Part shown: in pieces, positions 44,810 to 56,903 of the stretch
How the letters are laid out: each line of letters starts with the position of its first letter
How positions within the stretch are numbered: position 1 is the first letter of the stretch
Origin: Chitinivibrionales bacterium
Lineage (GTDB): Bacteria > Fibrobacterota > Chitinivibrionia > Chitinivibrionales > FEN-1185
Assembly (NCBI GenBank): GCA_035516255.1
Contig: DATJAL010000007.1
Span: 1-64,000 of the forward strand
DNA length: 64,000 bases
Reading direction: 5' to 3'
The notes under the pieces: generated by a model
The model's database searches: none
What the model saw: the letters and a program-made list of their open reading frames with translations, nothing else
What the model was told of the DNA's origin: nothing
Translations under genes and position numbers: made by a program

Positions 44810-45685
44810 TTATTTGTAAAACCTGCCCGCCCACAGCCTGCCGCTTTTGTCAATAAGCAGCGATTTGACGCATTGACCCGCGAACCCGACGAGTTCGGCG
44901 CGGCCGCTTCCCGGCGCAACGCGGAAAAGCCCTTTCTGCGTGCCCAGAAAAAGCGTGTCGTGTGAATCTTTTTCAATGGACCAGACCAGATTGTCTTTCG
45001 GTTCAAGCAGTATGGTCCTGCACCGGTCCCTGGCGATGATTGCGCAAAGGCCGAGCCCGCCGGCGATAAAAAGCGAGTCGTAGGCGTTCACCACCCAGCA
45101 CACGACCCCCTTGCAGTACTCACGCGTGCCGGTGCCGCTTTCCCTGTCAAACACCGATATGCCGCGCATATGCGCCACGGCGATTTCTTTTCCGAGAAAG
45201 GCGATGTCATGCGCATCGTACAAGGGCTTGAACATGATCATGCTGTCGTTGCGCTCGAAACGTATGCCCATTATTCCCGCGATCCAAAGTCTTCCCCGCT
45301 CGTCCTGCTTCATGGACCATGCCGCATATTGCGCCCATGACACCGGAAGCAGCGTGTCTTTTTCCGCTCGGTAAACGCCGGAATAATACGACGACGCGAA
45401 CAATGCCCCGTTTTCCCTGAACACCATGGAACGGAGCGGCAGCCTCCCCACGCGCCCGATGCGGCGAAACGCCTCGGGATGGTCGGGGTGAAACTGGAAA
45501 ATGCCGTCCTCGGAGGTGGAGAAGTAGATCGAGTCGTTGTGCTGCTTGATGGAATAGACCCAGGTGCGCGGGATGGGATGAAAGGGACAGGTGTTTTGTT
45601 TTTTTTCGCAGGAGACAAGAAAAAATATCAGGACAGTGCCAAGGATGATTTTTATCCTGATGATTGTGACGCGGCGGATGTGCAT
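44810..45685 (-). CDS. Beta-propeller lipoprotein
   Basis: A 291-aa lipoprotein with lipobox ending FFLVSC (about Cys26). Repeated units with the pattern DSIYFSTSEDGIF, GRLWIAGIMGI and DTLFLGTQKGLF follow, as in two-component-regulator propeller repeats. It has about five to six blades and no kinase or regulator domain, so it is a free propeller, possibly a sensor or binding module on the outer membrane. Confidence 0.68.
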   Translation of the reverse strand: MHIRRVTIIRIKIILGTVLIFFLVSCEKKQNTCPFHPIPRTWVYSIKQHNDSIYFSTSEDGIFQFHPDHPEAFRRIGRVGRLPLRSMVFRENGALFASSYYSGVYRAEKDTLLPVSWAQYAAWSMKQDERGRLWIAGIMGIRFERNDSMIMFKPLYDAHDIAFLGKEIAVAHMRGISVFDRESGTGTREYCKGVVCWVVNAYDSLFIAGGLGLCAIIARDRCRTILLEPKDNLVWSIEKDSHDTLFLGTQKGLFRVAPGSGRAELVGFAGQCVKSLLIDKSGRLWAGRFYK

Positions 45686-45875: not shown

Positions 45876-46319
45876 TTAATTCACCTGACGGTTGATTGTT
45901 TCCTGGTCGACGTTCTCCCGAAGAGCATCGGCAAAGGAACGTTCTAGGACAATTGGTTTAGCACTCGGATCGTTACCGTCAATGATAACAACAAGCTGGG
46001 GATTATCAATCCAGGGCTGAACTTGCACGGCATCAAACGAGAATTCCTTATTTTCCAAAACTGTTTTTACTTTACCTTTCTCAACCCATCCTGCTTTTCT
46101 GTCCCCGTCTTGGACTTTCAACGCATCCTTTGCTTTTTCCACAACAACATACCGGCCTTGTTCCTCCATGACAAACAACGGCTTTTCATACACTTTTCTG
46201 ATCCGGTTCTGATACACCGGCACATCCTTCTGCACCGGAATCGCATACATCTGCTTTTGCGCCCACGCTGCGCACGGCAGCAGCATGCCCACGGCAATCA
46301 ATACTCTTAGATATCTCAT
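45876..46319 (-). CDS. Small secreted SH3-like protein
   Basis: A 147-aa secreted protein (signal peptide to AWAQ, about residue 21) with strand-rich segments, such as KDVPVYQNRIRKV and GRYVVVEKAKD, suggesting a bacterial SH3-like fold. I choose ATG 46319 because AAAGGAGG sits 7 nt upstream; the ORF extends further to 46406. It lies just after the FecR-like anti-sigma gene, so it may be part of that regulon. The role is unknown. Confidence 0.6.
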   Translation of the reverse strand: MRYLRVLIAVGMLLPCAAWAQKQMYAIPVQKDVPVYQNRIRKVYEKPLFVMEEQGRYVVVEKAKDALKVQDGDRKAGWVEKGKVKTVLENKEFSFDAVQVQPWIDNPQLVVIIDGNDPSAKPIVLERSFADALRENVDQETINRQVN

Positions 46320-46411
46320 AATATCCTCCTTTGTCAAGTCTCGTTTTCCTTTTCTCCGACGAGCGCATGGTTTCCCGGGATTCTCCCCGCGCCCAAAATT
46401 ATGCAAAACAT

Positions 46412-47437
46412 TTATTCTGTTTTATTCGCTCCTTTTACGTCTTCAGGCATCATATGGCTTTCTCCAGAACTGCCGGGCAGCGTGCCTGATCCCGGCCTGG
46501 AAAGAGCGCCCTCAATATAGTCCCGCAGGAATTTCTCACGCACCCTGAGCATCTGGCTGTTCTGGATCATCACATTGATGATGGAGTCCCGGTTCGCGAA
46601 CGCGCCGTCGCCCTGTTTGAGCATGGCCGTGATCGAGGGCCTTCTCTCATGCTCGAGTTTCACCGCGCCCTCCACGACATTCACCATGGCATAGACGCTG
46701 TCGGCAATGACGCTGAACACCGTGCCCACGGCAACGATCCGCACCGTGGGTGTCTGCACCACAAACTGCCTGAACTTGTTTTTCTCGACGGTAAAAAGCG
46801 CCGTTCCCTTGGTGAGTTCGACCAAAACCGTTGTATCGGTCCTTGATTTCACGTTGATCACGGCCGCCGGCCCCGCCTCGATGCCGGTCTTGCCGCCCAG
46901 CCGTATGAGCGCCTCCCGGTCCTTTTTCACCGGTACTTTTCCGACGCGAATGTTGACGGAGTCAAACACCAGCACCATGTTTTTCTTCTGATCCGATCCG
47001 TTCCGCACCACAACGGTTTCAGGCAATGCCGTATTGTTCTCCGGGCCGTATTTCCCGCTCTTCACCGAGGGGCTCACGTGTCTGAAGTTTATGGACGCGT
47101 AGTCGTTGAAGGGGCCTTTTACGAGAAAATATCCGCAGACCAGCGCCGCGATGATCCCCGCAGCAATCGCGAATTTATAAATAGAAGATGCCGGAAAAGA
47201 ATATTCATGACTCTTAAAAGCGGCTTCTTTTCTATGCAGTGTCTGAGCTTTTAAAATAATGGCATCGACGGTTTTGTCAACCAGCTCCTGCGGCACTTTG
47301 TTTTCCGGATTTTCCCCGGCTATCACCGCCAGCAATTTCTCCCTGCACGCAGCACAATCGGCAAGATGCTCCTCAAACGGCGCCGATTTGTTTCCGCGGC
47401 AGTATTCCAATATCTGGCTTTGCTTGAGACAGTCCAT
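46412..47437 (-). CDS. FecR-like anti-sigma factor with N-terminal zinc finger
   Basis: A 341-aa membrane protein. A zinc-binding anti-sigma domain (His24, Cys28, Cys31) is followed by one transmembrane helix (about 87-110) and a periplasmic FecR domain (LTKGTALFTVEKNK...VVQTPTVRIVAVGTVFSV, about residues 205-250). A charged tail of about 100 residues ends it. It should hold the upstream ECF sigma factor until an envelope signal arrives. It lies 10 bp after the sigma gene. Confidence 0.78.
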   Translation of the reverse strand: MDCLKQSQILEYCRGNKSAPFEEHLADCAACREKLLAVIAGENPENKVPQELVDKTVDAIILKAQTLHRKEAAFKSHEYSFPASSIYKFAIAAGIIAALVCGYFLVKGPFNDYASINFRHVSPSVKSGKYGPENNTALPETVVVRNGSDQKKNMVLVFDSVNIRVGKVPVKKDREALIRLGGKTGIEAGPAAVINVKSRTDTTVLVELTKGTALFTVEKNKFRQFVVQTPTVRIVAVGTVFSVIADSVYAMVNVVEGAVKLEHERRPSITAMLKQGDGAFANRDSIINVMIQNSQMLRVREKFLRDYIEGALSRPGSGTLPGSSGESHMMPEDVKGANKTE

Positions 47438-47447
47438 ATAGGCCTCA

Positions 47448-48029
47448 TTACTTCGCGACGACGCGACGCATACCCTTTTTTATTTTTTGAACAATCTTCG
47501 CCTTCTTCGAATAAATGGTATCAACCGCCACGCCCATCACCGTTGCAATGGTCTCCGGCGGCATGCATTCTTCAAAGTAAAGATGGTAAAAAAGCCGTTC
47601 CTGCGGCGAGAAATCGACAAGCAAGCCCTTTATTTTTTCCATTATCTCGCCATTTTCAAGGGGAAGGAACCCTTCCTCTTCGTCAATGACATTCTCGGGC
47701 GGCTCGACCGGTCCTTTTCTCCTACGGTTGAGCGCATTTATCGCCGTTGTGCGGGCAATGGTCATCAGGTAAGTGCCCAACCCCGCCTTTTCAGGGACAT
47801 ACGCCTTGAGCTTCCTGCAATCACCATCGAAAAGAGAGACAAACACCTCCTGAAATACATCCTTTATTTCATCCTGGTCCTTCGCCGAATATCTACGAAA
47901 AACCCACGTTATTGTCTGCATCACCAGCCTCCCGTACCGGCTGATCAGTTCGTTGAGCGCGCCCTTGTCGGGCGGCTGTGCAACACACCGCGCTACCAGG
48001 GATGCGTCATCGGTGAGGTGTATTTGCAT
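47448..48029 (-). CDS. ECF-family RNA polymerase sigma factor (first)
   Basis: A 193-aa sigma factor of the ECF group with region 2 (DEIKDVFQEVFVSLF, about 52-66; LGTYLMTIARTTAINALNRR) and region 4 (PPETIATVMGVAVDTIYSKK). Region 1.1, 1.2 and 3 are absent. The cognate anti-sigma gene is immediately downstream, as is usual. The protein probably directs transcription of the local operon. It is divergent from the kinase gene at 48241. Confidence 0.88.
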   Translation of the reverse strand: MQIHLTDDASLVARCVAQPPDKGALNELISRYGRLVMQTITWVFRRYSAKDQDEIKDVFQEVFVSLFDGDCRKLKAYVPEKAGLGTYLMTIARTTAINALNRRRKGPVEPPENVIDEEEGFLPLENGEIMEKIKGLLVDFSPQERLFYHLYFEECMPPETIATVMGVAVDTIYSKKAKIVQKIKKGMRRVVAK

Positions 48030-48240
48030 AAGGGTCGCCCCGGAATCACTATTCGCTGGTACCTGACTACATATACAATTATTTTAAAAAAACCTACCCG
48101 ACTATTTAACTTTGATTTTGCCGATTTAAACGATGACGCTGATTTTAAACATTGAAGAAGAGCTTGCTTACATTATAGCTCATCCTATTTACTTGTGCAA
48201 TAAGCGTATGCAATTCGATTGAAAAAGATGGACCCGCTTC

Positions 48241-49683
48241 ATGGCTGTATCCTACGGCGTTCCGGCTGAATTCATCAACGCCCTCTATAAAAAAGACGGC
48301 GTCATAGCGCTCGGCTTTGAGCAGTATCTGTGCGAATCGCTGATCGGATCGGGCGGGCTTGGCGTGGTGATCAAGGCGAAGAAATCCGCGGGGCTCACGG
48401 TCGCACTCAAGTTCCTCCACACCCAGGCGCAGGGTGACGCGGGCGACATTCTTGAGCGGTTCAAGCGCGAGATCCGCGCCACCAAGATCGTGGGCGACAT
48501 CTCGGACTCCTGCGTGCGCGTGTATGAGTGCGGCGAATACGCCCTGCAGAACTTCGGCTCCATCCCGTTTTTCAGCATGGAATACGTTCCCGGCCTGAGC
48601 CTCGAGGACTTCATTCTGCTGCGGGAGACGCCGTTCACCCCGCTCGAGATATGGGTGCTGGCGCGCCAGATCGCCATGGCGCTCGACGACATCCACGCCA
48701 AGGGCATCGTGCACCGCGACATTAAACCCAGCAACATCCTCGTGCACGAAACGAGGCGCATCGTGAAGGTGACGGATTTCGGCATATCGCGCGACGTGTC
48801 GTCCGACACGGGCGTCACCATGGCCATGGACGACGGCATTCCGGTGATCCTCGGCACCCCCAACTACCTTTCGCGCTACTACTTCGACACGGTGCCTGTT
48901 GACAAAAGCGACGTTTTCGAGAAGAGCCCGGGCCGGTTCACGCGCAGGTCGACGGGCGAGCATGTCACCGCCGACTCCGCCGGCCGATATGTGTGCGCCT
49001 ACAAGGGTGAAAAGCTCGACATCAGCGTGCTGGCGTCCACCATCCTTTTCGAGCTCGCCACGCGGGTCAATCCCTTTGCCGGCTCGCCGCTGCCCTCCAT
49101 CCTCACCGACATCATGCGCGGCATGCGCCTCGACCTCAAGACGTTTTTCCGCGACCATCCCGATTTCTTCCACGACCAGGCGCGGAAAAAACCCGCCTTC
49201 ATCGAGCGCCTCGCCCGGATTATACGGAAGGGATACAACGCGCCGCGCAGCAGGACCTACGCAAGCGCCGGCGAACTGATCCGCGACCTTGACGGCGCGA
49301 TCAAGTCGTTCTGCGGACGCGTGCCCGGCGCGGCCGAAAAGGACGACATCATGGCCACCATCCTGGGCAAGACGCTTGTTGACGAATACGAACACGTGCT
49401 GCGGCGGTGCGAACGCGCCGTGCGGGACAACGCCGAGGCCGACGACAAGACGAATATCAACCGGATCATGCTCTTGTACAAGCTCAAGAAAACAGAGCGC
49501 CTCATGGCGTGCCTCGACCTTCTGCATGCGAAAACCGCCGAACTTGCCAGGAAAAAGGAGCCGGAGCGGACCAGCTGCGCGTTTCTGCTGGAATTGTGGG
49601 AGAAGCTCGAGCGCTTCGGTATCGAGGATCGGTATCGGGAAAACAGCGCGCTGCTTAAAACCGCGCTGCAGAACGCGCCATGA
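48241..49683 (+). CDS. Hanks-type Ser/Thr protein kinase
   Basis: A 480-aa cytoplasmic kinase. The Gly-rich loop is GSGGLG (36-41), the ATP-binding Lys is Lys57 in VALK, the catalytic loop is HRDIKPSN (158-165), and DFG is at 179-181. All catalytic residues are present. A long insert in the activation loop region (about 200-245) and a roughly 130-residue C-terminal helical tail follow. There is no transmembrane helix or PASTA repeat. The downstream gene encodes a kinase-like protein without these residues, and the pair probably works together. Confidence 0.85.
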   Translation: MAVSYGVPAEFINALYKKDGVIALGFEQYLCESLIGSGGLGVVIKAKKSAGLTVALKFLHTQAQGDAGDILERFKREIRATKIVGDISDSCVRVYECGEYALQNFGSIPFFSMEYVPGLSLEDFILLRETPFTPLEIWVLARQIAMALDDIHAKGIVHRDIKPSNILVHETRRIVKVTDFGISRDVSSDTGVTMAMDDGIPVILGTPNYLSRYYFDTVPVDKSDVFEKSPGRFTRRSTGEHVTADSAGRYVCAYKGEKLDISVLASTILFELATRVNPFAGSPLPSILTDIMRGMRLDLKTFFRDHPDFFHDQARKKPAFIERLARIIRKGYNAPRSRTYASAGELIRDLDGAIKSFCGRVPGAAEKDDIMATILGKTLVDEYEHVLRRCERAVRDNAEADDKTNINRIMLLYKLKKTERLMACLDLLHAKTAELARKKEPERTSCAFLLELWEKLERFGIEDRYRENSALLKTALQNAP

Positions 49684-49684
49684 T

Positions 49685-49845
49685 AAAAAATTCACCATGG
49701 AGGCAGGAGAGCACGGAGAAAAGAATGGAGTTGGAGGTTGAAGGTTGAAAGCAGCAGCAAGAACAAAGCACATTTAACTTTCAACTTCCAACTGTAAACT
49801 GTTGGTTCCCTCTGTGTCCTCTGTGTCTCTGTGGCAAATCTTATA
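49685..49845. repeat. Nested inverted-repeat element between kinase and pseudokinase
   Basis: The outer left arm (AATTCACCATGGAGGCAGGA, about 49688) and the right arm (TCTGTGTCTCTGTGGCAAAT, 49821-49840) are partly complementary. Inside are a second pair, GTTGGAGGTTGAAGGTTGAA (49731-49750) and CTTTCAACTTCCAAC (49779-49793). Similar elements lie at 17285-17438 and 61830-61930. Confidence 0.55.
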
Positions 49846-49874
49846 ACAGGTGTAGAACACTCACAGGATCTCCC

Positions 49875-51170
49875 ATGCCCGATGACACCGTCATGCAAGT
49901 GACCAAGCGGTTCACGGAACCGCTTTCACTCGAGAACATCTCGGGCGTATGCCCGGGCTTTGTGCGCGCAAAACAGATGCTTAAAATCGGCAGAGACGTC
50001 ATTGCATCGGACGAAATCCTGGTGGAGGAGGTCGCATATCCTTCGCTGGAAAAAATGACCGCCGAGCTCAAGAGCCTCGGGCTCAAGGCCGGGCTGGCAT
50101 CGTCATTCGAGCACATGTCGGCGCCGCCGCCAAAATATGCCTACACCGACAACAAGGAGCTGTTGACGTGGTACATCACGCCGGTGCCGCCGGTCACGCT
50201 CGCCATGCTCCTCGCGCAAATCAAGGACCGATTCCCTCCCCATTACACCTGGAACAGAATGGCGTTTGTCCGCGATGCGCTGACTGCGGTGCGCGAAAGC
50301 TTCAGGCTGTCGTTCAAGGTGCGCAGAAATCCCCTGGCCGCCGTGAGAGACGCCTTCGATACCACGCGACGCGCATGGCCGCAGCGGCTCCCGTCGCGCG
50401 AGCGTCTCGCCCTTGCCGCCCTGCTTGCCGACATCATGCGGAAAAAACACAACGCAGGCATTTTTCACAACAACATCTTCCCGCACACCGTCTTTTTCTC
50501 CCAGGCCGTCACGCCGAGGTTCCTCAACAATTATTCGGGTGTCGAGCCAACCGTGATGGCCCAGTATATCCCGCCGGCCATCCGGCACCGCGACGCGGCG
50601 CTGTCTCTCGGTGCACAATCGCAAGACACCTACAGCGTCGCGCTCGCTGCCTATGAGCTTGTCACCGGCGAGCCGCTCAACGGGCCCGCGTTCGATCTCG
50701 ACCCTCCGGTGGCTTTCAACCACCCCGTTCCCGACTTTCTCACGAAACGTTTTTCAGGCGTTTTATCGTTTATCAATCCCTGCCTCGGCTTCGCCCGCGC
50801 ACTGTGGGACGCGGTGTTCAGGCACTACGACGAGTTCCTCGCGACGTTTAACGAGTCGAACTGGCCGCGCTTTCGCAGGCTCAACGAGGCGACCGGCTCG
50901 TTTGCGCGCTCGATTCCCTTTGTCCGGAAATTCCTGAACATCTGGTTCCCGACGCGGACCGCATGGGCGCTGCGCATCGTCCTCGATTACCGCGCCAACG
51001 AAAGCATCTTCGGCGCGACGGGCAGATTGTTCAAATCCTCCCATGTCAAAAAAAACGCGGATTGCGCGTTTCTGTCCCGCGCTTTTCCCAAAAGGCCGTT
51101 TTCGCAAAAGTCAAGGTTGGCAAGGCTGATACAGGAAATCATTGATGAGAATACAGTGAGAGAGCCGTAA
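49875..51170 (+). CDS. Predicted pseudokinase
   Basis: A 431-aa protein with kinase-fold cues but without key residues. The segment HNAGIFHNNIFPHTV (192-206) matches the catalytic loop GIVHRDIKPSN, but Arg-Asp is Asn-Asn and Lys is Phe. The SQDTYSVALAAYELVTGEPL segment matches the DxYSLGxxxYEMLTG helix F region. A DFG motif is not apparent. It probably cannot phosphorylate and may regulate or scaffold the upstream active kinase. AGGA precedes the ATG. It also has a long N-terminal region unlike a kinase N-lobe. Confidence 0.65.
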   Translation: MPDDTVMQVTKRFTEPLSLENISGVCPGFVRAKQMLKIGRDVIASDEILVEEVAYPSLEKMTAELKSLGLKAGLASSFEHMSAPPPKYAYTDNKELLTWYITPVPPVTLAMLLAQIKDRFPPHYTWNRMAFVRDALTAVRESFRLSFKVRRNPLAAVRDAFDTTRRAWPQRLPSRERLALAALLADIMRKKHNAGIFHNNIFPHTVFFSQAVTPRFLNNYSGVEPTVMAQYIPPAIRHRDAALSLGAQSQDTYSVALAAYELVTGEPLNGPAFDLDPPVAFNHPVPDFLTKRFSGVLSFINPCLGFARALWDAVFRHYDEFLATFNESNWPRFRRLNEATGSFARSIPFVRKFLNIWFPTRTAWALRIVLDYRANESIFGATGRLFKSSHVKKNADCAFLSRAFPKRPFSQKSRLARLIQEIIDENTVREP

Positions 51171-51189
51171 TCGGTTTTTTATTGATAAG

Positions 51190-51535
51190 ATTAAAATGAG
51201 CGTTCCCCCGCTTCGCGGGGCCGGCCTTCTTCCGGGCTCGGCTGTTCGCCTCGTTGCTGGACCGCCGAGTCGCCTTCGTCTCGATACGCCGCTTAAAAGC
51301 GGCTACTCGACGACCGCGGCGAAGTTCTGCTTCGTCAACAAACCATTTTGGCGCCGATCGGACAATTTCTCCGCATCACAATTTAATAGGTATGATGTAT
51401 GGCAGGCCGGAAATATCGCGAAAATGCAATATTTGGACCGGCCGTGCAAGTTTTCGGATGCGAAATAATAAAAACAATTTGGGGCGCGGCCGGGCCGCGG
51501 CCAGGGGGATGCTTCCCCCACCAGATTATTTTTAT
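51190..51535. repeat. G+C-rich dispersed elements
   Basis: GCGTTCCCCCGCTTCGCGGG (51201-51220) contains the hairpin CCCCGC-TTC-GCGGGG. GGCTACTCGACGACCG (51301-51316) matches 23914-23929. A second block at 51481-51525 (GCGCGGCCGGGCCGCGGCCA, then GGGGGATGCTTCCCCCACCA) resembles the element at 155-200. The gap 51171-51668 otherwise holds only the promoter below. Confidence 0.55.
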
Positions 51536-51579
51536 CTTTTCATATCAACCGCACTACCATGAGATAACCCTGTATTCCC

Positions 51580-51607
51580 TTGACACTGCCTCCCCAATCG
51601 TTTTAAT
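51580..51607 (+). promoter_or_regulatory. sigma70-type promoter of the lipoprotein/ECF operon
   Basis: TTGACA (51580-51585) and TTTAAT (51602-51607) are 16 bases apart. They lie about 60 bp before the lipoprotein start, which has GGAGG at 51657-51661. Confidence 0.55.
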
Positions 51608-51668
51608 TTACTGATAGCGAGAACTCATCCCCCCATCGGAAACAAACCCTTATACTGGAGGAAACGGT

Positions 51669-52541
51669 ATGAAAGTCCTGGCAAGGATCCTTTCTGTTCT
51701 GGCGGTTTCCTGTCTGTTGTTCGTCATGCTCGCCGGCTGCGGCGTGAGCGAGAAGAAACTCAGCGACGCGGAGCAGCGCATGCAGACGCTGCAGGCCAAC
51801 GGCGTTCCCGACTCGATGCTCACCGAGGCGAGGGTAATGATCGCGCAGGCGCGGACGGCGAAAAAGCTCGGCAACGGCATCGGCGCCAAGGCCGATTACG
51901 ATTCCGCAATGTCAATCCTTACGAAGGCCGAGGGCAGTTACGGCGCCACCACGGCAGAGGTCCAGCCGCAGGTCGAGGCGGCGCGCAAAGCGCTCGGCGA
52001 GAAAAAACTCAACCTGTCCGGCGCCAACCTGAAGGAGGCGGACAGCCTTCTTGGGGTCATCGACGCGCTGGTAAACGCTAAAAACTGGCCCGATGCAAAG
52101 GCCAAATGCCAGGAAATAACCGCCATTTTCGCCGGCCTTGAAAAAGACGAGCAGCTTGCAAAAGAGGTGAAGCCGAAAATCATCGGCACCTGGATCGGCA
52201 TATTTAACGACAAGGAAAACGGCGCCAAGGCGGTGGAGAAAAAACAGTACACCTTCGCCGCCGACGGCAAAGTTGACATTACAGAAGAGCGGTCGGGGCT
52301 GACGAGTCCTGATCTCAAGGAGGATTGGAAGTTCCAGTCGGCCGGCAGGTACGAGTTGAAGGGGGACACCATTCTCATCTCGGTCACCCATGAAAAACGC
52401 CTCAAAATGGTCTACCAGCATCTCAAGCAGAAAAAATGGGTAAAGGACGAAAAACCGCTGTATGACTCGGTGATCACCAGCGGCAAAAAGGACCGGTACG
52501 TGGCGTTCGGGGACCTCAAGGATAATTTCAAGAAAAAGTAA
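51669..52541 (+). CDS. Lipoprotein with helical repeats and lipocalin-like C-terminus
   Basis: A 290-aa lipoprotein with lipobox ending LAGC (about Cys24). A helical region (about 30-165) has regularly spaced Ala and Leu, as in DUF4398-like proteins. A C-terminal strand-rich domain (IIGTWIGIFNDKENGAK, about residue 175 onward) suggests a small barrel. Function is unknown. It is the first gene of the second ECF cluster, although a rho-independent terminator separates it from the sigma gene. Confidence 0.62.
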   Translation: MKVLARILSVLAVSCLLFVMLAGCGVSEKKLSDAEQRMQTLQANGVPDSMLTEARVMIAQARTAKKLGNGIGAKADYDSAMSILTKAEGSYGATTAEVQPQVEAARKALGEKKLNLSGANLKEADSLLGVIDALVNAKNWPDAKAKCQEITAIFAGLEKDEQLAKEVKPKIIGTWIGIFNDKENGAKAVEKKQYTFAADGKVDITEERSGLTSPDLKEDWKFQSAGRYELKGDTILISVTHEKRLKMVYQHLKQKKWVKDEKPLYDSVITSGKKDRYVAFGDLKDNFKKK

Positions 52542-52572
52542 TGCCGCCGGTTTTTCGCATGGAGGAAATGAA

Positions 52573-52602
52573 GGCGGGCTGCGATGCCCGCCTCTTTTTT
52601 TA
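52573..52602 (+). terminator. Rho-independent terminator
   Basis: GGCGGGC (52573-52579) pairs with GCCCGCC (52586-52592), followed by TCTTTTTTTT. It ends the lipoprotein transcript before the ECF sigma gene at 52668. Confidence 0.8.
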
Positions 52603-52667
52603 ATCGGAAAAATATTTTTGAGCGGAATGCCTTTTCATCCGTGTCTATCATAGAGAACCGGCACTGT

Positions 52668-53165
52668 ATGAATCAAGATCCCGGGACAGTTCCTGCGCAG
52701 GAGCTGTACGAAAAATACGGTTTTCTGATCCACCGCATCTGCCTCCGCATCCTCGGCTCGGAAGACGACGCCAAGGACGCGCTGCAGGCGGTGTTTCTAA
52801 AGCTGCTGCAGCAGTACGCCGGAATCCGGGATAAGGAAAGGACCGTTCCCTGGATTTTCAACACGGCCAAGCACCACTGCTTCAACATGCTCAGGGCGAA
52901 TAAAAAATTCGTTGACGGCATCGAGCCGGACGATATCGCGGAAGTGAAGGATGAGGGAGATTGTTTTGAAAAGAGAAACCTGATAAAAATGATCTTCATG
53001 AACCAGAGCAGGAAAGTTCGGGACGCGGTGTATTACACCTATGTGGAAGAGTTTGACCAGCGGGAGATACAAAAGATTACCGGCCAGTCTCCCGCCACCA
53101 TACGGAGAAATCTCATTAAATTCAAGAATAGCCTTCCCGGAATCAGGAAAAGGCTCGGGATATGA
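52668..53165 (+). CDS. ECF-family RNA polymerase sigma factor (second)
   Basis: A 165-aa sigma factor of the ECF group. Region 2 has EDDAKDALQAVFLKLLQQ and WIFNTAKHHCFNMLR. Region 4 has QREIQKITGQSPATIRRNL. I chose ATG 52668 because it gives the family-typical N-terminus; the open frame to 52584 crosses the terminator. It overlaps the following lipoprotein gene by 4 bp, and a zinc-finger anti-sigma gene follows at 53652. Confidence 0.85.
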   Translation: MNQDPGTVPAQELYEKYGFLIHRICLRILGSEDDAKDALQAVFLKLLQQYAGIRDKERTVPWIFNTAKHHCFNMLRANKKFVDGIEPDDIAEVKDEGDCFEKRNLIKMIFMNQSRKVRDAVYYTYVEEFDQREIQKITGQSPATIRRNLIKFKNSLPGIRKRLGI

Positions 53166-53629
53166 ATAAAAAAGCTGTTGCGATCTTGATTTTTTTTATA
53201 TTTACGGGGTGTAATACCTCCTCGCACTATGAAGCCTGCCCGGGGTGCATCAGCCCGTCGGTAGTCCTATCCTTCTATAACGCCTCGACAAATCAGAAAA
53301 TAATCCTTTCGGGATTGACTGCGATCTATTCCAACACCGACACCATTTCGGTTTCTTCAAATTCAAGGACCGATTCCGATTGGTGCTTTTTCAGCCCTGC
53401 CGATTCGGCTTACTCGGTTTTCCACGGACCCGGCAGTTATAAAATCATAATGAATGATCCGTTATACGCACAAGATTCCCTCGATACGATAAGGGTCGTC
53501 GACGACGGCACCGTTTGCAAAAGAATTTACACAAGGTACTTTGACGTCGGGCTGGTTCCGAAGTCTTTGGCGAAAACAGGCAGAAAACAAGCTCTCATCA
53601 TCCGCCAGTCAACAAAACTCGGATGCTGA
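53162..53629 (+). CDS. Small lipoprotein of unknown family
   Basis: A 155-aa lipoprotein with lipobox ending FTGC (about Cys17). Several Cys, Ser and Thr residues occur near the N-terminus, followed by a strand-rich region (IIMNDPLYAQDSLDTIRVV). I recognise no family. It overlaps the sigma gene by 4 bp and lies between sigma and anti-sigma, so it may be a signal-sensing or target component of the same circuit. Confidence 0.6.
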   Translation: MNKKAVAILIFFIFTGCNTSSHYEACPGCISPSVVLSFYNASTNQKIILSGLTAIYSNTDTISVSSNSRTDSDWCFFSPADSAYSVFHGPGSYKIIMNDPLYAQDSLDTIRVVDDGTVCKRIYTRYFDVGLVPKSLAKTGRKQALIIRQSTKLGC

Positions 53630-53651
53630 TTCGGGATTAACCGGAAATTTT

Positions 53652-54404
53652 ATGGAACATGAATTTGACAAGATAGAACTGCTCTCCTACTTTGCGGGAG
53701 ACCTCCCAGCCGCAAAACGGGACGCAATCAAACGGCATGTTGCATCGTGCGAACAATGTGCCGGGTATCTTGCATCGCAGGAATCCGAAAAGGCTGCCTT
53801 TCTACGGGAGCAGCCGTTCGAGACGACCGCAGCCCGGTCAAGCGTTCGACACACAGGGAAGCTGCTGCTCTACACCCGCAGACAGGCATATGCGCTTGCC
53901 GCCTCGCTCATACTGTTGGTAGGCGCGAGTTACCTGTTCCTGTCGAGCAGGCCCGAGCCCGGCTACCGGATCAAGGGCGAAACGGCACTCAAACTGTTTG
54001 TGAAGAACCGCGAGGGCGGCGTTGAAAAACGCGCAGGCCGGGAATATTTCACCGGCGAGAAGATACAGTTCTTGTATTCCTGCGGCGCGAAAAACAATTT
54101 CGCGCTCGTCAGCATGGACACCGCGGGCGCAGTCACGGTGTATTACCCGCAGTCGCGCGACAGCTCGCTTTCGCTCGAGCGCGGCCAGGACCTGCCGCTC
54201 CCCAACAGCATCGCGCTCGACGAATACACCGGCCGCGAGCTGTTCATAGGTATCTTCTCGGAAAGGCCCTTTTTCGTGCCGCGCCTTGTTGAAAAGCTTA
54301 AAATTTCATTTGACAGACGCCACTCCATCGATTCAACCGCAATTGACGATAAGGAATTTACGGCCGTGCCGTACCTGCTTTCCATTCAACGGGAGAAGCG
54401 CTGA
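53652..54404 (+). CDS. Zinc-finger anti-sigma factor with DUF4384-like domain
   Basis: A 250-aa protein. An N-terminal zf-HC2 anti-sigma domain (His29, Cys33, Cys36) precedes a transmembrane helix (about 80-98). A periplasmic domain (about 110-240) follows, with GEKIQFLYSCGAKNNFALVS and VTVYYPQ, the pattern of DUF4384. This domain is known to occur with caspase-like proteins and kinases. It should bind the sigma factor at 52668. Its stop overlaps the caspase start by 1 base (TGATG). Confidence 0.75.
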   Translation: MEHEFDKIELLSYFAGDLPAAKRDAIKRHVASCEQCAGYLASQESEKAAFLREQPFETTAARSSVRHTGKLLLYTRRQAYALAASLILLVGASYLFLSSRPEPGYRIKGETALKLFVKNREGGVEKRAGREYFTGEKIQFLYSCGAKNNFALVSMDTAGAVTVYYPQSRDSSLSLERGQDLPLPNSIALDEYTGRELFIGIFSERPFFVPRLVEKLKISFDRRHSIDSTAIDDKEFTAVPYLLSIQREKR

Positions 54405-56155
54405 TGCCGAAGCATTCACTGCTCCTCATCATCCTCCTTGCCTCGTCATTTCTTGCTTTTGGCGAACGTTACGCGCTGCTGGTGGGCAACAGCACGGCGT
54501 CCGGCAATTATGCCGAACTCAAGTATGTCCAAAATGATCTTGCCGCTCTTTCGGACATCCTCATCGATTTTTGCGGGTTTGCAAAAGAGCATCTGGTGAT
54601 TCTTTACAACCAGACGCCGCAGGATTTCGAGCGCGCGCTCGGCGATTTTTCCGAACGGATGAGCGGCTCAAAAGGCAACATGTTCCTTCTTTATTATTCT
54701 GGTCACGCCGACGTTGCCAACCTCAAAATGGGAAGCGGCGATTACCCGCTCAGGACGCTGAAGGACAAGCTCACTGCCTTCCCCGCCGACATCCGCATCG
54801 GCATCTTTGACGCGTGCCAGAGCGGCAGCTTCACGCGCATCAAGGGCGGCAGGCTCGACGAGCCGTTTCTGTTCAGGGACGACGCCAAGACCAAGGGCCA
54901 GGTGATCCTCTGCTCGAGCTCGATAGACGAAAACGCGCAGGAGTCCGACCGGTACGGGAACTCCGTTTTCACGTTCCACTTTGTCAATGCGCTCCGCGGC
55001 AGCGGCGACATGGCCGGCGACGGCCGCGTAACGCTGGGCGAGGCGTACCAGTACGCCTACAACCACACCATCTCGAGCACGGCAGGCACCTCGGGCGGCG
55101 TGCAACACCCCTCCTATCAGTTCCGCATCCAGGGCGAGGGCGACATCGTGCTCGCCGACCTCAACATCCGCACGCGCGGCATCCTGCTTTCGGGCGACGT
55201 GGCCGGCGACATCACCATCCTCAGCGACAAGGGGATCGTGGTGGCAGACCTTGCGAAAAAGGCGAATACCGGCGTCATGATCGCGCTTAAGCAGGGCGCC
55301 TACCAGGTGATCAACGGCAGGGGCGAGCAGCGCTTCATCGCACGTGTCAAGGTTGACGAAAAGTCCGTGGTCGCGGTGAAAAACGCCGACTTTTCACCCG
55401 ACGAACAGGCCGCGGCCAATAAAAAGGGCGAAGAGACCCGGCGCGGGGCGCAGATCGGCATTACCCTGTCCGGCGAGTACGGCATGTACAACTTCACCGG
55501 TCTTTCTTCCGCCCTCGCGCAGCGTTTCGCGGGTTTCAACGCGTTCTCCATGAGCCCGGGGTTCGCCTTTCCGAAATACCTCATGGTGCCGGCGATAACC
55601 GGTGAGGTCATTGTCAGGAAACAATACGAGGCGCACCTGGGGTTTGGAAATTACTACACCGCCTCGTCTTCACATTACAACGGGGCTGAAATGAACCTGA
55701 CCGATAATTCGTCCTACGCCTGCCGGCTGCAGGTGGCGCAGGCGCTGAACGTCACGGCGATCGACATCGGCGGCGGCTACCGTTTCCAACTACCCTATGT
55801 AAAAAATTTCTCCCTGCACGTGGGGCTCATGGTTTACGAACCGGAGTTGAAAGTTCAGTCCACGTTCTATGATTCTCTGTACGACAGGGAAGTCTCCGGT
55901 TCGGCCACCTACCGGGGAACCGCCGCGGCGCCGTACCTTGCCGTCGGCTACACCTGGCCCGCGCTCAAATGGCTGGACATCGGCGCGAAAATCCGCTACC
56001 GGTACCAGTACGGCACATGCGGGCTCGGCATCGATTCGCCCGTCCCGGAGCAAAATCCCGCCGGAGCCGCGCTGACGCCGCTTTCCTGCAACTTTGGCGG
56101 GCTGGACGGCAGCGTGTTTATCAACGTGCATCTTTCATTTACAAGATCGGAATGA
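54404..56155 (+). CDS. Caspase-like protease fused to a C-terminal beta-barrel
   Basis: A 583-aa secreted protein. The signal peptide (about 1-18) is followed by a caspase-fold (C14) domain. His101 in LYYSGHAD and Cys138 in FDACQSGSF form the dyad. The last roughly 235 residues (from about 347) consist of alternating-hydrophobic strands ending in an aromatic, barrel-like sequence. Caspase-like proteins in bacteria are known in stress and programmed-death pathways. I infer an outer-membrane anchor with the protease in the periplasm, or surface-exposed. It is co-expressed with the sigma/anti-sigma pair. Confidence 0.75.
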   Translation: MPKHSLLLIILLASSFLAFGERYALLVGNSTASGNYAELKYVQNDLAALSDILIDFCGFAKEHLVILYNQTPQDFERALGDFSERMSGSKGNMFLLYYSGHADVANLKMGSGDYPLRTLKDKLTAFPADIRIGIFDACQSGSFTRIKGGRLDEPFLFRDDAKTKGQVILCSSSIDENAQESDRYGNSVFTFHFVNALRGSGDMAGDGRVTLGEAYQYAYNHTISSTAGTSGGVQHPSYQFRIQGEGDIVLADLNIRTRGILLSGDVAGDITILSDKGIVVADLAKKANTGVMIALKQGAYQVINGRGEQRFIARVKVDEKSVVAVKNADFSPDEQAAANKKGEETRRGAQIGITLSGEYGMYNFTGLSSALAQRFAGFNAFSMSPGFAFPKYLMVPAITGEVIVRKQYEAHLGFGNYYTASSSHYNGAEMNLTDNSSYACRLQVAQALNVTAIDIGGGYRFQLPYVKNFSLHVGLMVYEPELKVQSTFYDSLYDREVSGSATYRGTAAAPYLAVGYTWPALKWLDIGAKIRYRYQYGTCGLGIDSPVPEQNPAGAALTPLSCNFGGLDGSVFINVHLSFTRSE

Positions 56156-56159
56156 TTTT

Positions 56160-56903
56160 ATGAATACCGTTTTTCGAAGCATCCTTGTCACCGCCGTGGC
56201 CCTCCTTGCGGGATGCGCCTCGAACATGGCGCCGAATAGCATCGGCACGCCCCAGAACCCGCCGTTCCCTACTACGCAAAGCATCCTGCCGCTGGCCGCG
56301 GGGAACCAATGGGATTATTCCTACACCGCCTACGACCCGCTCGGGAACAAGATCAGCCCGAGCAGGGTCAACCTCGTGCTCACACTTCCCGCTGTTTACG
56401 GTCTTGTCAATGACACCCAGCTCGTGGCCATCACCCGGCAGAATTACCAGCAGGACTTTCCGGCATACGTTTATAAATACGAATGGGACAACCGCGACAG
56501 CGGCGCGCTCGTGGTGCACCGGGGAGCCTATGCGCTTGACAAGCGCGGGTTATACGTCATCGGATGGTACCGCGATAGCGTAACGCACCTATTCCCGGCC
56601 GAAAAGCTGTGGCTCGCCTACCCCGCCGATAGCGGCAAGACATGGACCTACAATCCCGATTCCGCAAACGATTCCGCCTTTGCCGTCACCATGGAAATCC
56701 TGTCAACGCGAGCGCAGTTTTTTGTGCCCAACTCAAGCATGGTGACGGGCGGCGCGTTTTACAAATGCTACCTCTACAAAGAGACAGGCATCGGATATGT
56801 GAGCTATTATTACTACAACCCGGACATCGGCTGCGTGGGGTATCTCAATTACAGCAGCGGGAAACTGACGGCAAGCTATTACTTGAAAAACTTCAATGGA
56901 TAA
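56160..56903 (+). CDS. Lipoprotein of unknown function
   Basis: A 247-aa lipoprotein with lipobox ending LAGC (about Cys18). It is rich in strands and Tyr (SYYYYNP-type), suggesting an extracellular or periplasmic domain of unknown type. It starts 4 bp after the caspase-barrel gene and is the last gene of the operon. I recognise no family. Confidence 0.6.
   Translation: MNTVFRSILVTAVALLAGCASNMAPNSIGTPQNPPFPTTQSILPLAAGNQWDYSYTAYDPLGNKISPSRVNLVLTLPAVYGLVNDTQLVAITRQNYQQDFPAYVYKYEWDNRDSGALVVHRGAYALDKRGLYVIGWYRDSVTHLFPAEKLWLAYPADSGKTWTYNPDSANDSAFAVTMEILSTRAQFFVPNSSMVTGGAFYKCYLYKETGIGYVSYYYYNPDIGCVGYLNYSSGKLTASYYLKNFNG

Follow-up and report, generated by a model that had tools for sequence, protein, structure and literature searches.

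What does a bacterial caspase act on when its gene lies beside genes for sigma factors, anti-sigma factors and protein kinases, and which of these neighbours belong with it? Bacterial caspases are mostly treated in cell-death terms and, to our knowledge, few natural substrates have been established for caspase homologues of prokaryotes. The window analysed here is a stretch of 64,000 nucleotides of a Chitinivibrionales bacterium (GCA_035516255.1, contig DATJAL010000007.1), and the genes in question occupy positions 45876-56903. A first-pass annotation had described these 11 kb as a single island, in which two ECF sigma systems, a kinase/pseudokinase pair and a caspase with a barrel would form one stress or death-type circuit controlled from the envelope.

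Separation of the caspase operon from the upstream genes

The minus strand encodes the annotated ECF sigma factor (Sig1, 47448-48029) and FecR-type anti-sigma factor (46412-47437), together with a small exported protein (45876-46319) whose SH3-like designation was not borne out, Pfam giving no match. On the plus strand are an active-type Ser/Thr kinase with Lys, HRD and DFG all in place, as first described (48241-49683), and a pseudokinase-like protein (49875-51170; no Pfam match), in which the reported loss of catalytic residues was confirmed in an HRD-like segment. Its ancestry as a kinase is weakly supported by this segment, by a match to the MAD6 kinase model (E 6e-4) and by a Foldseek search of its low-confidence model, which returned protein kinases only. 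Relatives of the pseudokinase carry an additional TM segment and C-terminal domain, and the protein is about 300 residues shorter here; a remnant of the lost part was sought 3' of 51170 with no convincing match. The intervals 51185-51324 and 51435-51541 are repeats dispersed through the genome.

Of 61 genomes, five had the kinase pair, with both genes present in every case, and outside this genome it was never near sigma or caspase genes. The closest homologues of the kinase (43-45% identity) came only from the four other genomes carrying the pseudokinase, at unrelated loci. A genome of the same genus encodes SH3-FecR-Sig1 and Lipo52-Sig2-Anti2-Casp-Lip56 without the kinases, and there the Sig1 and Lipo52 genes, between which the pair is located in our window, are direct neighbours. 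The kinase pair is a rare separate module outside the caspase operon, and the Sig1-FecR-SH3 set, local to the genus, is a neighbour of the caspase switch and not part of it.

The caspase genes are bounded by an intrinsic terminator (AGGCGGGCTGCGATGCCCGCCT plus T-tract, 52572-52593, plus strand), which ends the Lipo52 gene and sets the Sig2 operon apart, followed by a predicted operon promoter (TGAGCGG-N15-GTGTC, 52619-52645, plus strand). A similar GC-rich stem with a T-tract is also found 5' of Sig2 in the same-genus genome, and at 9 of 10 loci the Sig2 gene is preceded by a conserved element, TGAGCGA-N15-[GT]TGT[CT]. Because of the terminator and the conserved promoter, the caspase cluster is taken as a transcription unit of its own. 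A joint circuit of both sigma systems, the kinases and the caspase is suggested by the adjacency of the genes here, and by that of Sig1-FecR and the caspase operon in the same genus too; against it stand the operon's own promoter and upstream terminator, the absence of the kinase pair from the same-genus locus and its lack of linkage elsewhere, and the restriction of Sig1/FecR homologues, among the loci examined, to the same-genus locus. By the condition that the first-pass annotation itself had set, a gene neighbourhood kept in relatives, such a circuit is largely refuted, and we regard it as very improbable. An anti-phage role was also considered and rejected: in PADLOC the kinase hits were of the generic kinase type, the sigma factor gave a single weak hit, and the caspase and the anti-sigma factor gave none.

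A conserved sigma, anti-sigma and caspase core

All the genes first listed for the second cluster were found, on the plus strand: an ECF sigma factor (Sig2, 52668-53165; Sigma70_r2 9e-11 and TIGR02937 above cut-off, Pfam region 4 below cut-off), a small lipoprotein (53162-53629; no Pfam match), a membrane anti-sigma factor (53652-54404), an exported C14 caspase (54404-56155) and a second lipoprotein (56160-56903; no Pfam match). The packing is tight from 52668 onward, with overlaps at 53162 (ATGA) and 54404 (TGATG); the third overlap claimed, at 56160, is a 4-base gap. The small lipoprotein was seen in this genome alone; neither the same-genus locus nor any other locus examined has it. The lipoprotein at 56160-56903 is a partner of barrel-type caspases, with homologues immediately 3' of the caspase gene at the same-genus locus and at nine further loci.

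The anti-sigma gene is directly upstream of 57 of the 62 caspase genes detected in 61 Fibrobacterota genomes, and most of the exceptions are at contig ends, broken, or partnered below the search threshold. Both genes were present in 43 of these genomes, neither in 14, and one only in 4. A Sig2 homologue accompanies nearly all the caspase loci examined, and the order ECF sigma, anti-sigma, caspase recurs in Myxococcota. For the collection scan the caspase profile was built from a closer subset, all 17 caspases together being too diverse. The conserved core is an ECF sigma factor, a membrane anti-sigma factor and an exported caspase with an Ig-like domain and a barrel. Control of the caspase from the envelope through a sigma/anti-sigma pair, a further element of the original description, is supported and conserved far more widely than one genome shows.

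Architecture of the caspase and the anti-sigma factor

The caspase scores above cut-off for PF00656 (7e-14) and has a p20 domain with a His-Cys dyad, His101 and Cys138, both invariant across the family alignment. The structural model of the caspase by itself (pLDDT 76) matched the MALT1 caspase-Ig, metacaspases and OmpA/Ail barrels; the strands of the C-terminal outer-membrane beta-barrel (residues 349-578, 55448-56137) reach a pLDDT of about 88-95, and the loop at residues 140-177 falls below 50. In the scheme proposed below, the barrel holds the exported caspase at the outer membrane, which would put its protease domain in the periplasm, on the same side as the outer part of the anti-sigma factor.

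The anti-sigma factor combines a cytoplasmic zinc finger, one TM helix and a periplasmic DUF4384-like domain. Its Pfam scores (zf-HC2 2.5e-4, DUF4384 1.8e-4) are both just under cut-off, and an HxxxCxxC motif with one TM helix is present in most family members (A2/A5). Of three myxobacterial-type anti-sigma factors tested, two lacked any Pfam match and none reached DUF4384. The sigma factor and this adjoining zinc-binding membrane protein match an ECF sigma/anti-sigma pair, from which binding and inhibition are predicted.

A Lys-Gly pair common to both proteins

In the anti-sigma alignment (A5, 18-25% identity) the only invariant columns besides Met1 are a Lys and a Gly, corresponding here to K108-G109 in the predicted cleavage site I-K↓G (53970-53978). 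Among 71 non-redundant, diverse anti-sigma factors these were the two most conserved columns (66/71 each, 93%), compared with about 75% for the zinc ligands in the same set; the A5 profile used for finding the proteins was built from K-G sequences, which introduces a mild bias. The pair sits immediately beyond the inner membrane, with 6-36 residues separating it from the TM helix. As a point against the cleavage reading, a few K-G anti-sigma factors (L189, L217) lack an adjoining caspase gene, although relatives of L217 carry other caspases in their genomes.

The same pair occurs in the caspases, at Cys+9/+10, in the predicted self-cleavage loop R-I-K↓G-G behind Cys138 (K147, 54836-54850), being invariant in alignment A1 and retained among the linked caspases (K 61/65, G 61/65); K-G is absent from this loop in C14 proteins of the unlinked, Bacteroidetes type. 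In caspases the cleavage loop is the linker behind the Cys strand (PMC4357240). C14 enzymes other than true caspases require Arg or Lys at P1; self-processing is obligatory in the orthocaspase MaOC1 and, as a point against the cleavage reading, type I metacaspases show no cut between p20 and p10 (PMC5756287). By analogy with the family (PMC5756287), cleavage after Lys or Arg is expected for the caspase described here.

The flanking residues match as well: P3 and P2 agree between the anti-sigma factor and the caspase loop in each phylum (permutation p 2e-4, n = 24, and 4e-4, n = 34), and this match ranks 6th of 47,291 adjacent-column pairs against a null with the same phylogeny. Such matching flanks indicate common recognition, not cleavage as such, and would also fit a docking or pseudosubstrate site, with the anti-sigma factor filling the caspase active site, keeping the caspase or itself inactive and signalling without a cut. 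We consider this quite unlikely, as a basic residue before a small one has the look of a good substrate, and several exceptions to K-G retain that pattern (K-S, K-A, R-G).

Alternatively, the pair could be a structural turn opening the DUF4384-like domain, which would count against cleavage; the anti-sigma factor would sense the envelope directly, and the caspase would merely be a target of the sigma factor (an effector, perhaps a stress protease). The position of K-G just before the DUF4384-matched region and the location of the caspase gene within the sigma operon favour this explanation, which nevertheless appears unlikely given that DUF4384 proteins unlinked to caspases (L128, L134, L135) lack K-G, that the spacing to the membrane varies, and that the anti-sigma flanks track those of the caspase loop.

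A proposed caspase-driven sigma switch

Cleavage is the reading we prefer, with a probability of roughly 0.6: the caspase would process itself, cut the anti-sigma factor after Lys108 and free a sigma factor that transcribes the same operon, the cleavages and their order being inferred. At rest, the inner-membrane anti-sigma factor would hold the ECF sigma factor through its cytoplasmic zinc-finger domain. A putative envelope signal, possibly received through the partner lipoprotein or through the caspase's own barrel or Ig-like domain, would activate the caspase, which would self-process after Lys147 and then cut the anti-sigma factor, removing the DUF4384-like domain. The stub would be degraded, probably by an ordinary site-2 protease; genes of that family (M50) are present in this genome, and likewise in all 14 control genomes. 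The freed sigma factor would transcribe its own operon, making the switch self-amplifying.

The promoter at 52619-52645 is predicted to be read by the operon's own sigma factor. The strict motif occurs seven times in 41 genomes, 6/7 of them upstream of the caspase operon, and there are four loose matches in this genome. A regulon search with this motif gave the operon itself and a few loose matches, with no readable death or stress regulon; the death-type circuit first suggested finds no support in a strict promoter essentially confined to the operon's own upstream region.

More broadly, we lean towards the view that a large family of exported caspases in Fibrobacterota and Myxococcota has one dedicated next-door natural substrate, the membrane anti-sigma factor, cut after a near-invariant Lys that matches the self-cleavage site of the caspase; activation of the protease would in this way be turned into a self-amplifying change of transcription spanning the envelope. 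Genome sequences suggest here what the caspase cuts, where it cuts and which gene is the output, and the lineages concerned include cultured bacteria (Fibrobacter, Myxococcus).

Comparison with known systems

The proposed switch resembles the DegS-RseP-RseA-sigmaE pathway in that the first cut of a membrane anti-sigma factor would take place in the periplasm; the initial protease of that pathway, DegS, has a different fold and is of the serine type, whereas the switch would use a caspase borne on an outer-membrane barrel. In E. coli, further processing after this first cut releases the sigma factor (PMC10028731). ECF54 sigma factors (reviewed in PMC8999054) are similar in having genes for caspase-like (CHAT) or subtilase proteases beside the ECF sigma gene, with proteolytic control proposed.

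Operons of sigma-70 and metacaspase genes, sharing one transcription unit as here, were noted in 2012 in Myxococcus, Anaeromyxobacter, Haliangium, Sorangium, Ralstonia and Fibrobacter (Asplund-Samuelsson et al. 2012, PMC3501461); unlike the present analysis, the passages on these operons name no anti-sigma factor, barrel, common Lys-Gly site, promoter or mechanism. The substrate signature was not found reported, and a literature search, with most subscription papers and all preprints outside its scope, returned nothing that ties metacaspases, or genes for DUF4384 proteins and caspases, to the cleavage of an anti-sigma factor.

A parallel in logic is type III-E CRISPR, in which the caspase-fold Csx29 cuts Csx30, an inhibitor of the ECF-like CASP-sigma, with positive autoregulation proposed (PMC10028731). 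Both systems would have a caspase-fold protease cutting a sigma inhibitor, a cut we infer here; Csx29 is RNA-activated with Cas7-11, whereas here an exported protease would act on a zinc-finger anti-sigma factor in the membrane. Our protease combines a C14 domain and a barrel, Cas7-11 and the TPR-CHAT protease are missing from the locus, and no CRISPR genes were seen around the caspase, its neighbours being NIF3, RF2, Nudix, rhodanese and glycosyltransferase genes. If true, the switch would give ordinary bacterial caspases a signalling role and provide an envelope counterpart of the CRISPR-linked Csx29/Csx30 pathway.

Organization of the region

The genes named in the first-pass annotation were all found near their proposed positions. 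The minus strand encodes a small exported protein (45876-46319; no Pfam match, so that its label "SH3-like" is unproven), a FecR-type anti-sigma (46412-47437) and the ECF sigma Sig1 (47448-48029). A lipoprotein with two-component-regulator propeller repeats (44810-45685; PF07494) adjoins these genes, and its surroundings are preserved in a same-genus genome. The plus strand encodes a Ser/Thr kinase (48241-49683), a kinase-like protein (pseudokinase, 49875-51170), the lipoprotein Lipo52 (51669-52541), the ECF sigma Sig2 (52668-53165), a small lipoprotein (53162-53629), the anti-sigma Anti2 (53652-54404), a caspase-barrel protein (54404-56155) and the lipoprotein Lip56 (56160-56903). The stop/start overlaps described at 53162 and 54404 are genuine, but at 56160 there is a 4-base gap.

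The same-genus genome carries SH3-FecR-Sig1 and Lipo52-Sig2-Anti2-Casp-Lip56 in identical order, with the kinase absent and Sig1 just ~280 bases away from Lipo52; among the loci examined, this was the only one with homologues of Sig1, FecR and SH3. A terminator (52572-52593) lies ahead of Sig2, followed by a conserved promoter element (52619-52645), and together they set the caspase cluster apart as a separate transcription unit.

The kinase pair

The kinase is of the active type, as first proposed, with the Lys, HRD and DFG motifs retained. The description of its neighbour as kinase-like without catalytic residues is partly borne out: Pfam is blank, and kinase ancestry is weakly supported by an HRD-like segment with lost residues, a weak match to the MAD6 kinase model, and a low-confidence structure model whose best PDB matches are protein kinases throughout. 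The pseudokinase occurs in 5 of 61 genomes, in each case immediately behind the closest kinase homologue; its loci in the other four genomes contain no sigma or caspase genes. These relatives (L027 7144-9363, L028 3284-5305, L029 2212-4428 and L030 9666-11801; about 670-740 residues), all with the specific kinase directly upstream, extend further, with a TM segment and then a conserved C-terminal domain that no Pfam family matches; the window protein is ~300 residues shorter. Immediately behind it lie two intergenic repeat units (51185-51324 and 51435-51541), with ~40 partial copies dispersed over the genome. Short conserved stretches flank the pair, matching those beside Sig1 and Lipo52 in the same-genus genome. 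With the unlinked loci elsewhere, the kinase-free same-genus locus, these stretches and the repeats mark the pair as a separate module, either inserted in this genome or lost from the same-genus genome. The window's genome (4.3 Mb) has 21 Ser/Thr kinase-like matches.

The proposal of one joint circuit thus merged unrelated modules, since the kinases stand elsewhere without sigma or caspase neighbours and the caspase cluster has its own terminator and promoter; an island including the kinases is not conserved in relatives. The neighbourhood is real and interesting, and its valuable part is the caspase operon.

Conservation of the caspase operon

In 61 Fibrobacterota genomes there were 62 caspase matches, 57 of them immediately preceded by a co-oriented Anti2 homologue. 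Both genes were present in 43 genomes, neither in 14, only the caspase in 2 and only the anti-sigma in 2. The exceptions were mostly contig ends, one broken gene or pairs under the search threshold; another, L260, is a caspase of different type (C14 domain C-terminal, without Lys-Gly loop). A sigma gene lies upstream of the anti-sigma at nearly all loci, and the identical gene order was found in Myxococcota and in other records labelled Deltaproteobacteria. Sigma-70/metacaspase operons were noted in 2012 in Myxococcus and relatives, Ralstonia and Fibrobacter (Asplund-Samuelsson et al., PMC3501461), so that the gene association as such was already known.

Anti2 is built from a zinc finger, a single TM helix and an outer domain resembling DUF4384. 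The N-terminus of the caspase is hydrophobic and resembles a signal peptide; a caspase domain (His101 and Cys138 invariant), an Ig-like domain and a barrel follow. The best structural matches of the caspase model are MALT1 caspase-Ig and OmpA/Ail barrels. From the signal peptide and the topology, the active parts of both proteins are predicted to be periplasmic.

A Lys-Gly site shared by both partners

Across 12 anti-sigmas drawn from the two phyla, which share 18-25% identity with the first of them, Lys-Gly and Met1 were the only invariant columns; in 71 non-redundant anti-sigmas, Lys and Gly were the two most conserved (66/71 each; zinc ligands about 75%), located 6-36 residues behind the TM helix. 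Several exceptions retain a basic residue followed by a small one (K-S, K-A, R-G). An orphan anti-sigma relative (L253 3978-4655, G041), with no sigma, zinc finger or caspase nearby, has R-G where the others have K-G. In the caspase, Lys-Gly lies 9-10 residues past the catalytic Cys (61/65), in a loop disordered in the structure model and positioned where caspases are cut (PMC4357240). It is absent from the corresponding loop of unlinked Bacteroidetes-type C14 proteins, and from the region ahead of the domain in DUF4384 proteins that have no caspase link. Outside the true caspases, C14 enzymes require P1 Lys/Arg, and self-processing is essential for the sole characterised orthocaspase (PMC5756287); self-cleavage is put forward conditionally here, because type I metacaspases have no cut between p20 and p10 (PMC5756287).

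The P3 and P2 residues of 58 anti-sigma/caspase pairs agreed between partners above the level of shuffled pairs, which ignore kinship, in Fibrobacterota (n=24, p=2e-4) and in Myxococcota-type genomes (n=34, p=4e-4). In a control sharing the same kinship, scoring every adjacent-column pair between the anti-sigma and the caspase domain, the motif pair ranked 6 of 47,291, the strongest sign that one enzyme may recognise both sites. One subgroup (loci L223, G066, and L227, G064) shows a striking match: the loop of the caspase and the site in the anti-sigma each read Pro-Lys-Gly.

Promoter and proposed switch

At 9 of 10 loci, the motif TGAGCGA-N15-[GT]TGT[CT] precedes the Sig2 gene. Its strict form occurred 7 times in 41 genomes, 6 of them upstream of the caspase operon (reversed control pattern: one occurrence), and Sig2 most likely reads its own operon. 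The loose form occurs at four places in the window's genome, one of them at the operon; further Sig2 targets with looser sites are possible.

Beyond what is observed (the arrangement of the genes, the conservation, the matching sites and the promoter), we infer a signal, a cleavage and an output: the signal would lead to activation and self-processing of the caspase; the caspase would cut the anti-sigma after Lys108, the conserved Lys of its Lys-Gly; the anti-sigma stub would be removed; and the released sigma would increase operon expression. The site-2 protease family is present in this genome, but equally in all control genomes. If Sig2 transcribes its own operon, the switch would be self-amplifying. 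The nearest tested precedent is Csx29/Csx30/CASP-sigma, in which Csx29 cuts Csx30, relieving the inhibition of CASP-sigma (PMC10028731); the caspase operon would act alike, yet it is not a member of that system.
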